Part shown: piece by piece, positions 2,076 through 5,071 of the stretch
Position numbering within the stretch: position 1 is the first letter of the stretch
How the letters are laid out: each line of letters starts with the position of its first letter
NCBI GenBank assembly: GCA_021846945.1
Contig: JAJZVZ010000006.1
Coordinates: 1-64,000, forward strand
Source of the DNA: Acidobacteriota bacterium
Lineage (GTDB): Bacteria > Acidobacteriota > Terriglobia > Terriglobales > Acidobacteriaceae
Length of the DNA stretch: 64,000 bases
Direction: 5' to 3'
Program-made: the position numbers and the translations under genes
Notes under the pieces: model-generated
The model's database searches: none
Seen by the model: the letters and a program-made list of their open reading frames with translations, nothing else
Told to the model about the DNA's origin: nothing

Positions 2076-2084
2076 GGTAGTGTC

Positions 2085-2885
2085 CTAAGTTGCCTTTTGG
2101 TGCTGCTCGGGATCGTTGCTTATGCTGGAAGGTTTCATCCTTTCCAAGCGCCCATCGATAAAGCCCCGGTACAGGTCTTGGAAGGGTTGGACCTGCTTCC
2201 GGTCCATGCAGTCCAGAAACCCAATATCTCCAGAGACAATGAATATCCTGCCCGACTCGTTGAATTCACCAACATCGATCACGCAAGTTCCCGTGAATGG
2301 GAACGCGCTCTCGTTTTCGCTCTTACGCGGGGGAAGCGGGAAGTCGCAATCGACCTTCACTTTCCTTATATCGTGAACATTGGCGATGAGTTCAAATTCC
2401 ACTCCCTTGATCGTTACCAAGTAGTCGGTCTTGTTCACAATTTCAAATCGAAGCGCGATCTCGCAGGGGTTCTTGAGGGTTGGCGGAATACTGAGGCCGA
2501 GTGGAACGACGTTCACCCATTGCCGCAGGGCGGCGGATTGAAGCATGATCTGGCTCTCGGCAGATTTCGCCGCGCGCCGAGTCTCATTGCTCTGCCAAGC
2601 AATTACGAATCCGGTCCCGATAATGGCCCATACGGTAATTCCCTCGGGCCATGCTACGAGTACGTACCACCAGGGCAGGTAATTTACGCTGCTATCTCGT
2701 TCATGCTTGCAGGCTTCTTGTTGTTCGGCCTCCCACGGCGCTGGAAAACTTTGGGCACAACCTTTCTGGCGTTCGGCCTCATATTTTCCGGCGGCTGCGT
2801 GTTGCTTGCTGGCCACGAACAACACTGTACCTACTACCAAAAGGAGACATACCAACCACGGAACGAACGCCAACAGTTTCTTCAT
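2085..2885 (-). CDS. hypothetical membrane-anchored protein (IS cargo)
   Basis: N-terminal TM MKKLLAFVPWLVCLLLVVGTVLF, second TM WPEGITVWAIIGTGFVIAW, then soluble domain; stop codon lies inside the left IR. Confidence 0.75.
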   Translation of the reverse strand: MKKLLAFVPWLVCLLLVVGTVLFVASKQHAAAGKYEAERQKGCAQSFPAPWEAEQQEACKHERDSSVNYLPWWYVLVAWPEGITVWAIIGTGFVIAWQSNETRRAAKSAESQIMLQSAALRQWVNVVPLGLSIPPTLKNPCEIALRFEIVNKTDYLVTIKGVEFELIANVHDIRKVKVDCDFPLPPRKSENESAFPFTGTCVIDVGEFNESGRIFIVSGDIGFLDCMDRKQVQPFQDLYRGFIDGRLERMKPSSISNDPEQHQKAT

Positions 2886-2941
2886 GGTGGTGAAAATGTA
2901 TCACAAAAAAGTGTAGACATGCCCCCAGGGAGAGTGAAAGG

Positions 2942-3688
2942 ATGGCGGGCATGGGAAACCAGATTCTCTTCTTTGGCAATGTTTTCGCTCATCTGGTGGT
3001 GCTTATGAGCGGAATCGTATCATTCATTTTCGCCACTGTAGCAGCGATTAGAAAGCGTCCTCTCATTGAACGATGGTTTTGGGTAGCGGGCGCTATATGT
3101 CTTATTGCCGCCTTTGACTCCGCATGGCAGGATGAACATCGTAATACGCAAACGGTAATAGCAGAAAAATCTGTGCTCGCGAGCGCGGAAAATTCTTGCC
3201 AACAGAATGCGCTGATTGCAGATGCGTATAAACGTGGCCTTGAAAGCGCAAATCTAACCGAGAGACAAACAATCGACAAACAGCAAATCGCGGTAAATAG
3301 CTGTGTAGTCTCCCTAGGAAAGATGAATCCTATAGTGAACACGCGGACGCCAGTAGTCTCTTTCATTGTTGCGTTTAGCACGCCAAAAGATCGCTTTGGT
3401 TTGCCACAAAAATTGAATTGGTACGGCATCGTCATTATGACCAATCGCAAGCTAGAGCCCGTGGGAAAGCTCTCATGCGATAAACCGTTTACTGTAGGAG
3501 ATGCTCAACTTCATATACAAGCGTCTAGCGCAATGATTGGCCCTCCTACCATAAAAAAAATCAGTGATACGGCTTTTGATATACGAATAAGCAATACTGG
3601 GGCCGACTGGGAGGATGGCAACCCAATCACAGTATCTGCCTCAAGTGTCTCTGAGTCGCTAAATTGTTCCTTTAATACAGATGAATAG
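2942..3688 (+). CDS. hypothetical membrane-anchored protein (IS cargo)
   Basis: Two N-terminal hydrophobic segments then soluble domain; visibly more AT-rich than the surrounding chromosome. Confidence 0.75.
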   Translation: MAGMGNQILFFGNVFAHLVVLMSGIVSFIFATVAAIRKRPLIERWFWVAGAICLIAAFDSAWQDEHRNTQTVIAEKSVLASAENSCQQNALIADAYKRGLESANLTERQTIDKQQIAVNSCVVSLGKMNPIVNTRTPVVSFIVAFSTPKDRFGLPQKLNWYGIVIMTNRKLEPVGKLSCDKPFTVGDAQLHIQASSAMIGPPTIKKISDTAFDIRISNTGADWEDGNPITVSASSVSESLNCSFNTDE

Positions 3689-3735
3689 TTGACAGTCTAT
3701 TATTTTTGTAATACAGTTATTATTGTGAGGTTGAG

Positions 3736-4560
3736 ATGGCAAACGTACTCAACACGGATAAGCAAATCGCGGTGATCGCTGCACTTGCAGAGGGTTCTAG
3801 CATCCGCGCTATTGAGCGCATGACGAGCATTCACCGCGATACGATCATGCGGCTAGGGGTGAGGATCGGCCAGGGATGCACCGCGCTGCTCGATTCCAAG
3901 ATGCGTGACTTGTCCTGCAATCGGCTGGAAATTGACGAAGTTTGGGGATTCATCGGAAAGAAGGAATCCCGCGTCAAGCCCGGCGACGATCCATCACTCG
4001 GAAATGTCTGGACGTTCTGCGCCATCGACGCGGAAACGAAGCTCGTTCCATCGTTCGCGGTTGAGAGCCATCGCAGTGCGGCGGTCACAACGGCATTCAT
4101 GAAGGACGTAGCTTCGCGGATGCGGAACCGCATCCAGGTGTCAACCGACAGCCTCAGAGCCTATCGGGAAGCCGTTGAAGCTGCGTGGGGTAGCGACGTG
4201 GACTATGCGCAGATCGTCAAAGTGTTCGGCCACGAGGAGCGGGACGAGCATCGTTATGCGCCGCCCGAAGTGATTGGAACGGAAAAGACGGTCATGCAGG
4301 GGAACCCCGATTACGCGCTGATTTCTACCAGCTACGTCGAGCGGCTGAATGCTACCACGCGGCTGCACATGCGCCGCCTCACTCGGCTTACCTTGGCCTT
4401 CTCTAAAAAGTTGGAGAACTTCCGTGCCGCCGTTGGGCTGCACTTCGCCTATTACAATCTTGTGCGCCGCCACAATACGTTGCGCTGCACCCCGGCCATG
4501 GCCGCTGGAGTGGAAAGCACGTTTTGGACGGTAGGAGATTTAGTGGAGGCTGCATCGTGA
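3736..4560 (+). CDS. IS1-like family DDE transposase
   Basis: N-terminal HTH (EGSSIRAIERMTSIHRDTIMRLG), catalytic-type motifs LEIDEVWGFIGKK, ISTDSLRAY, ISTSYVERLNATTRLHMRRLTRLTLAFSKKLEN. Confidence 0.93.
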   Translation: MANVLNTDKQIAVIAALAEGSSIRAIERMTSIHRDTIMRLGVRIGQGCTALLDSKMRDLSCNRLEIDEVWGFIGKKESRVKPGDDPSLGNVWTFCAIDAETKLVPSFAVESHRSAAVTTAFMKDVASRMRNRIQVSTDSLRAYREAVEAAWGSDVDYAQIVKVFGHEERDEHRYAPPEVIGTEKTVMQGNPDYALISTSYVERLNATTRLHMRRLTRLTLAFSKKLENFRAAVGLHFAYYNLVRRHNTLRCTPAMAAGVESTFWTVGDLVEAAS

Positions 4561-4862
4561 CGTACATCGAAGAATTGCAACAGGTTATCCATCGCCTTCA
4601 CGGAGTCCATTCCACCCATGTTCAGAGTGTGCCTGTAAAAGAGGAATTTCAGGGCAAGACAATTTGGGAGGGAATTGTCGAGGTATTTGAACTGCACGGG
4701 CATCCCAAAGCCACCCATGCCTACGCTTGGACCCACGAAACCGACGACCCAGAGAACCCGAAGCGCAGCGTGACCGTCCTCAAGATTCCACCAGCCGTAT
4801 CCCCCGAAACCGCTGTGCGAGTCGCCATTATGCAGGAGTTATCCAATGCCGAGACAGCCTAA
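4557..4862 (+). CDS. transposase-associated hypothetical protein
   Basis: GTG start overlaps the transposase stop (GTGA); VTYIEELQQVIHRLHGVHSTHVQSVPVKEEFQGKTIWEGIVEVFELHGHP. Confidence 0.75.
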   Translation: MTYIEELQQVIHRLHGVHSTHVQSVPVKEEFQGKTIWEGIVEVFELHGHPKATHAYAWTHETDDPENPKRSVTVLKIPPAVSPETAVRVAIMQELSNAETA

Positions 4863-5034
4863 GAAACGTAAGCCGGGTCGCCCCAAGCTGGCGGAGCATG
4901 AGACCAAAGGAAAAATCGTACCAGTACGTTTTACCGGCGCTGAGTATGAACGAGTAGCCGAGGCTGCACGTAAGGCCAGCCAAACCGTTTCACAATGGGT
5001 TCGTAGCACGTTAGCTGCCGCAGCGGAAGGATAA
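4846..5034 (+). CDS. small basic, ribbon-helix-helix-like accessory protein
   Basis: MPRQPKKRKPGRPKL...VPVRFTGAEYERVAEAARKASQTVSQWVRSTL; start overlaps the end of the preceding ORF. Confidence 0.75.
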   Translation: MPRQPKKRKPGRPKLAEHETKGKIVPVRFTGAEYERVAEAARKASQTVSQWVRSTLAAAAEG

Positions 5035-5063
5035 ACCTGTGGATTTCAAATTAGGACACTACC

Positions 5064-5071
5064 TACACACC
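5064..5071. repeat. target site duplication, right copy (TACACACC)
   Basis: Identical 8-mer abuts the left IR at 2068-2075. Confidence 0.9.

Follow-up and report, generated by a model that had tools for sequence, protein, structure and literature searches.

The window analysed here, a 64,000-nucleotide stretch of Acidobacteriota DNA, contains at positions 2076–5063 a transposase gene and four other ORFs between inverted repeats. The question is whether this region is one mobile unit or an insertion sequence with neighbouring genes caught beside it, and what its remaining genes contribute. The features discussed below are as follows.

2068–2075, left copy of the 8-bp target duplication TACACACC, directly outside the left end
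2076–2092, plus strand, left inverted repeat GGTAGTGTCCTAAGTTG (family consensus GGTAGTGTCCTAATTTG)
2085–2885, minus strand, cargo gene 1, membrane-anchored protein of 266 aa (leave-one-out HMM, AlphaFold, Foldseek)
2897–2909, left candidate operator half-site TGTATCACAAAAA, beside the start of cargo gene 1 (alignment of relatives)
2942–3688, plus strand, cargo gene 2, second membrane protein of 248 aa, between the two operator half-sites
3689–3717, plus strand, sigma70-like promoter TTGACA-N17-TACAGT of the transposase operon, conserved in relatives
3706–3715, right candidate operator half-site TTGTAATACA, overlapping the -10 box and covarying with ribbon-helix-helix residues
3736–4560, plus strand, IS1-type DDE transposase, single ORF of 274 aa with D67, D138 and E202 (Pfam, NCBIfam, alignment)
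4557–4862, plus strand, ORF2, accessory protein of 101 aa, its start overlapping the transposase stop (GTGA)
4846–5034, plus strand, ribbon-helix-helix (RHH) protein of 62 aa with beta strand IVPVRF (profile match), a proposed autorepressor
5047–5063, minus strand, right inverted repeat GGTAGTGTCCTAATTTG (sequence match to the left end)
5064–5071, right copy of the target duplication TACACACC, directly outside the right end

The element, its ends and its relatives

The sequence-only reading had described a complete IS1-like element with perfect 13-bp terminal repeats (16 of 17 positions when extended), an 8-bp direct repeat outside them, one transposase, four other ORFs and no internal repeat copy, and each of these points was borne out. 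A scan of the 64 kb for the 13-mer GGTAGTGTCCTAA, with two mismatches allowed, returned exactly two copies, 2076–2088 on the plus strand and 5051–5063 on the minus strand, which was reached in none of 100 shuffles. The extended ends GGTAGTGTCCTAAGTTG and GGTAGTGTCCTAATTTG agree at 16/17 positions, and TACACACC adjoins both. Since internal ends are absent, a composite transposon was rejected; relatives with the same boundaries likewise indicate a single unit. Two corrections apply to the genes: the left one is a minus-strand ORF ending inside the inverted repeat, and 4557–5034 belongs to a conserved chassis instead of the cargo.

The transposase scores 25.4 bits against PF03400 (IS1 transposase; threshold 24.1), and D67, D138 and E202 are conserved in 56–57 of 57 transposases. 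Its NCBIfam IS1 equivalog score of 45.9 is below the cutoff of 100, which indicates a distant subgroup rather than classical IS1. With the single-ORF members of the IS1 family in ISfinder it shares GGnnnTG-type ends, a duplication of 8–9 bp and a PF03400 DDE transposase. It differs from IS1 in having a 274-aa single ORF without the InsA/InsB' frameshift, and its group in measuring 2–4 kb with accessory genes and cargo. Long single-ORF IS1 members are already listed in ISfinder.

With the transposase as query, 44 loci were recovered from GTDB genomes, nearly all Acidobacteriota. In 33 of these loci an end could be located on either side of the transposase, which with the window makes 34 elements of 0.8–3.7 kb delimited in the same way. 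Their end consensus is GGTAGTGTCCTAATTTG, and 30 of the 34 are flanked by exact 8–9 bp duplications, for which reason the long form is taken as canonical; the GGTAGTG ends and these repeats also agree with the GGT start and duplication length expected of an IS1 relative. Shorter canonical boundaries, sought independently of ISfinder, were seen in none of the elements examined. Of a wider set of 14 transposases (only 42–48% identical), 13 lie within elements of 2.0–3.5 kb with 8-bp duplications and GGTAGTG-type ends (GGTACTG in one), and three alphaproteobacterial plasmid elements have likewise GGTAGTG-type ends and 8-bp duplications. Since close, distant and plasmid relatives all show them, long cargo-bearing forms are the norm of the group. 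Sampling of 399 genomes from the class showed a transposase of the wider group in 81. Judged by sequence, the element belongs to an Acidobacteria-rich IS1-like group shuttling interchangeable genes. A 3.9-kb contig assigned to a Thaumarchaeota bin also has a complete element (L027), for which a binning error is more likely than an archaeal host, and another (L205; 3091 bp, 8-bp duplication) is in a 94-kb IMG/VR contig.

The flanking genes of the window element are adjacent in a genome of the same genus (L070) with no element between them. This locus aligns continuously over the insertion point at 76% identity, with small indels exactly there, so it documents a site free of the element without giving the precise sequence of the original target. 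Same-ended relatives, the DDE residues, the Pfam match and this empty site make it well supported, on comparative grounds, that 2076–5063 is one genuine IS1-type mobile element carrying cargo.

ORF2, the RHH protein and its candidate operator

The right part of the element consists of three overlapping genes, those for the transposase, ORF2 and the RHH protein. Nearly all close relatives have ORF2 (38–87% identity; alignment of 39 members), and in a survey of 297 genomes spread evenly across the phylum it turned up in 7, always near a transposase of this group. Its model, a helix, four strands and a helix (pLDDT 93), had no match among PDB folds. In profile comparison the RHH protein matched NikA (2ba3; E = 3.6e-4) and also KacA, CopG and DUF1778 proteins, while the Pfam NikA-like family fell just below threshold. 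Among distant members, a small basic protein, GGxxGGxARAKxLTxExRxxIAxKAAxxRW, is common to L211 (2859–3077), L214, L215, L220 and L221, and may be the chassis protein that stands in for ORF2 and RHH. A related element at L034:1415–5014, with ends GGTAGTGTCTGAAAAGTGCG, has a Cro-type HTH gene and a TM/coiled-coil/beta protein and lacks both ORF2 and RHH.

By itself the promoter's match to consensus is within chance. Alignment of the 130 bp before the transposase in relatives revealed a TTGACA/TACAnT promoter with one half-site on the -10 box and a second, inverted one ahead of the -35 box. The four bases preceding TACA are GGGG, GGAG, GTAG, GTAA/GTAT, GTTA, GCAT or GCAC, and which of these is present goes with the residue at the middle contact position of the RHH strand: Arg occurs with GGGG (9/9), Pro with GTAA/GTAT (24/24), Gln with GTAG/GGAG (4/6) and Ala or Val with GTTA (2/2). 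The rule having been fixed beforehand, eight loci behaved as predicted (L007, L021, L040, L045, L077, L105, L106 and L108) and L022 did not; L011 and L047 were left unscored. Three later loci (L033 with GGGG, L224 and L205) agree with it. The exceptions are L022 (Gln, GTAA), L036 (Gln, GCAT), L226 (Arg, with GGGA on the right half and CCCC on the left) and L113 (Ala, GTCT), which agrees on the left half only. In the window, the strand IVPVRF is paired with the right half-site TTGTAATACA, as the rule expects. The left half-site lies by the left gene, with cargo gene 2 between the halves, both in the window and in L005.

Mutual information between RHH position P23 and the four operator bases is 1.42 bits (maximum of 5000 shuffles, 0.85), and a scan over all RHH columns that was not given the strand position ranked residues 21–24 and 26 among the top. 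Left and right half-sites agree at 3.04 of 4 bases, the shuffle maximum being 2.81. As operator bases over the promoter covary with its DNA-contacting strand, the RHH protein is a likely autorepressor, and its role as repressor of the transposase operon is strongly suggested by this comparison.

Could the covariation instead be ordinary antitoxin autoregulation, ORF2 and RHH being a toxin-antitoxin pair that addicts the host? Their genes overlap, the RHH profile matches the antitoxins KacA and DUF1778 as well as NikA, and HicA and PemK toxins occur in other group members. We regard this as unlikely, since ORF2 was unlike any toxin family or fold in the searches made and belongs to the constant chassis, not to the cargo that is exchanged, and the covarying operator sits at the transposase promoter, ~1.1 kb ahead of the RHH gene.

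It is quite unlikely that the strand-operator pairing stems from common descent of a few linked blocks and not from binding. Supported independent switches are indeed few: on the transposase tree there are 13 RHH-class and 11 operator changes, and the five supported independent pairs gave four changes in the same way, none opposite and one without difference (sign test, p = 0.125). Against this, the close pair L004/L005 has transposases 93% identical, yet both RHH strand and operator (GGGG in L004, GTAT in L005) have changed; Arg goes with G-runs, and both half-sites shift together. The top columns, moreover, are exactly the strand that in Arc/MetJ-type proteins enters the major groove.

Cargo genes and their exchange

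Most elements of the subgroup carry, left of the transposase and on the minus strand, a membrane-anchored coiled-coil/Ig-like protein. In the window this is cargo gene 1, whose product has an N-terminal TM, a helical/coiled-coil stretch and an Ig-like beta-sandwich (AlphaFold pLDDT 71), with weak Foldseek matches to ApaG/Kir/FNIII sandwiches. The plus-strand ORF 2097–3008 was rejected as the left gene, the minus-strand frame being homologous across elements. The 23 left-end proteins form one family (leave-one-out HMM, E = 1e-10 to 1e-41; best shuffle 0.2), the window's protein scoring 2.7e-10 against 9.2 for its best shuffle. Its stop codon, at 2085–2087, is inside the inverted repeat, as at element position 10 in 9 of the 23 left-end genes, the window included. 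Among elements the left gene is too diverged for dN/dS, synonymous sites being saturated. The earlier alternative, that the cargo resides in chromosomes without inverted repeats, was not seen for the window's own genes but holds for distant homologues of the left gene, which occur outside elements in the same genus at about one per genome.

Cargo gene 2 had no family match in Pfam, NCBIfam, PHROG or PADLOC, and the window cargo matched no known defence protein in PADLOC. Searches for a function of the cargo or of ORF2 in Pfam, NCBIfam, PHROGs, PADLOC, PDB sequences and folds gave nothing significant. In distant members, whose ends are similar, the cargo includes Fic, PemK, HicA, trypsin-like and proteasome-like proteins and an N6/N4 DNA methylase; the last of these, at L213:4832–6289, is joined to a weak Mrr-type nuclease domain in one protein of 485 aa.

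In 59 element pairs with transposases more than 75% identical, mean identity is 0.78 for the transposase, 0.67 for ORF2 and 0.24 for the left protein. DNA homology in these pairs is limited to ~27 bp of the left end, the transposase, and the segment from ORF2 to the right end; it breaks at the transposase start and picks up again at ORF2. L026/L046 and L018/L021 have near-identical transposases and different kinds of cargo protein. Exchange of cargo on a conserved chassis of ends, transposase, ORF2 and RHH gene is well supported by these comparisons. That this is instead an ordinary insertion sequence with hitchhiking junk caught by chance is very improbable: cargo differs among almost all elements and distant homologues exist outside them, but more than 30 elements across genera have the same architecture, the left proteins are joined in one family by the leave-one-out HMM, the cargo stop codon is often common with the inverted repeat, and the membrane gene is intact in two transposase-less derivatives.

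Proposed mechanism, known systems and derivatives

A self-contained IS1-type transposon with an RHH-repressed operon and exchanged cargo is the probable explanation of the whole. Comparison with relatives shows that the single-ORF DDE transposase acts on GGTAGTGTCCTAATTTG ends and produces 8-bp duplications. Its gene would be transcribed with those of ORF2 and RHH from one promoter, around which the covariation places RHH binding at the half-sites TTG-nnn-TACA (right, over the -10 box) and TGTA-nnn-CAA (left). Such binding would repress the transposase operon and probably the divergent cargo gene too. ORF2, as a chassis protein, may be a helper or modulator of transposition. Cargo lies left of the transposase and sometimes between transposase and ORF2, and the sharp homology breaks suggest recombination joining the chassis of one element to the cargo of another. 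By analogy with the distant toxin, Fic and methylase cargo, we would guess that the two membrane proteins give an envelope-related trait, for example exclusion of phages or competitors, which keeps the element in the population.

More tentative, and rather doubtful, is the idea that repressor and operator define immunity groups like those of temperate phages, with specificity switched repeatedly, between elements whose transposase and ends are almost the same, to escape repression by resident copies while exchangeable envelope or defence cargo is ferried. Five genomes have two elements, two of them with unlike and three with alike specificities, so exclusion of same-specificity elements within one genome is unsupported.

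The transporter IS (tIS), as PMC3129680 cites Siguier 2009, was defined with the IS1595 family, and insertion sequences with passenger genes are a known kind (PMC3129680, PMC7986276). In the way it works the element resembles a transporter IS: between its own inverted repeats lie passenger genes that have no part in transposition, with one transposase, one repeat pair and no internal repeat. It differs in that nearly every complete relative examined has cargo, swapped on a constant chassis to which a dedicated RHH regulator and ORF2 belong. Like the autorepressors Arc, CopG and NikA, the 62-aa RHH-profile protein has a candidate operator over the promoter of its own operon; unlike them, it is predicted to control a transposase operon, with natural switching of specificity between near-identical elements. 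A literature search for ISMhu11 or this IS1-like group found no paper; as far as searched, neither the switching of repressor specificity nor this degree of cargo exchange has been described, and ISfinder may list members.

These results indicate a type of element, common in Acidobacteriota and little described, that carries small gene cassettes. The RHH strand residues and their matching operators are a natural data set for the protein-DNA recognition code, one that would let repressor immunity groups in insertion sequences, as in phages, be tested.

Two transposase-less derivatives, L112 (861 bp) and L113 (1669 bp), have 8-bp duplications. They resemble mobile insertion cassettes and MITEs in keeping ends and membrane gene while an intact transposase is absent, but derive from this group, not from IS231/IS4 elements. 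Three near-identical 120-bp MITEs with GGTAGTGTCCYAATTTG-like ends (L114, L115 and L116) occur in one genome (G392), with exact or near-exact duplications, one an exact 9 bp. At L023:2238–4075 a second repeat-bounded unit of 1838 bp, with three minus-strand ORFs (123, 163 and 241 aa) and no transposase, lies 9 bp from a complete element; two ends are back to back in L029 and L107 as they are in L023. The genome of the window (G000) has one further exact 13-bp end, at C64:34524, beside an imperfect second copy. This 43-bp hairpin-like pair, GGTAGTGTCCTAA...TCAGGACACCACC (L001:1501–1543), precedes a cold-shock gene, has GAGAATC on either side, and may be a minimal relic of an element of this kind.
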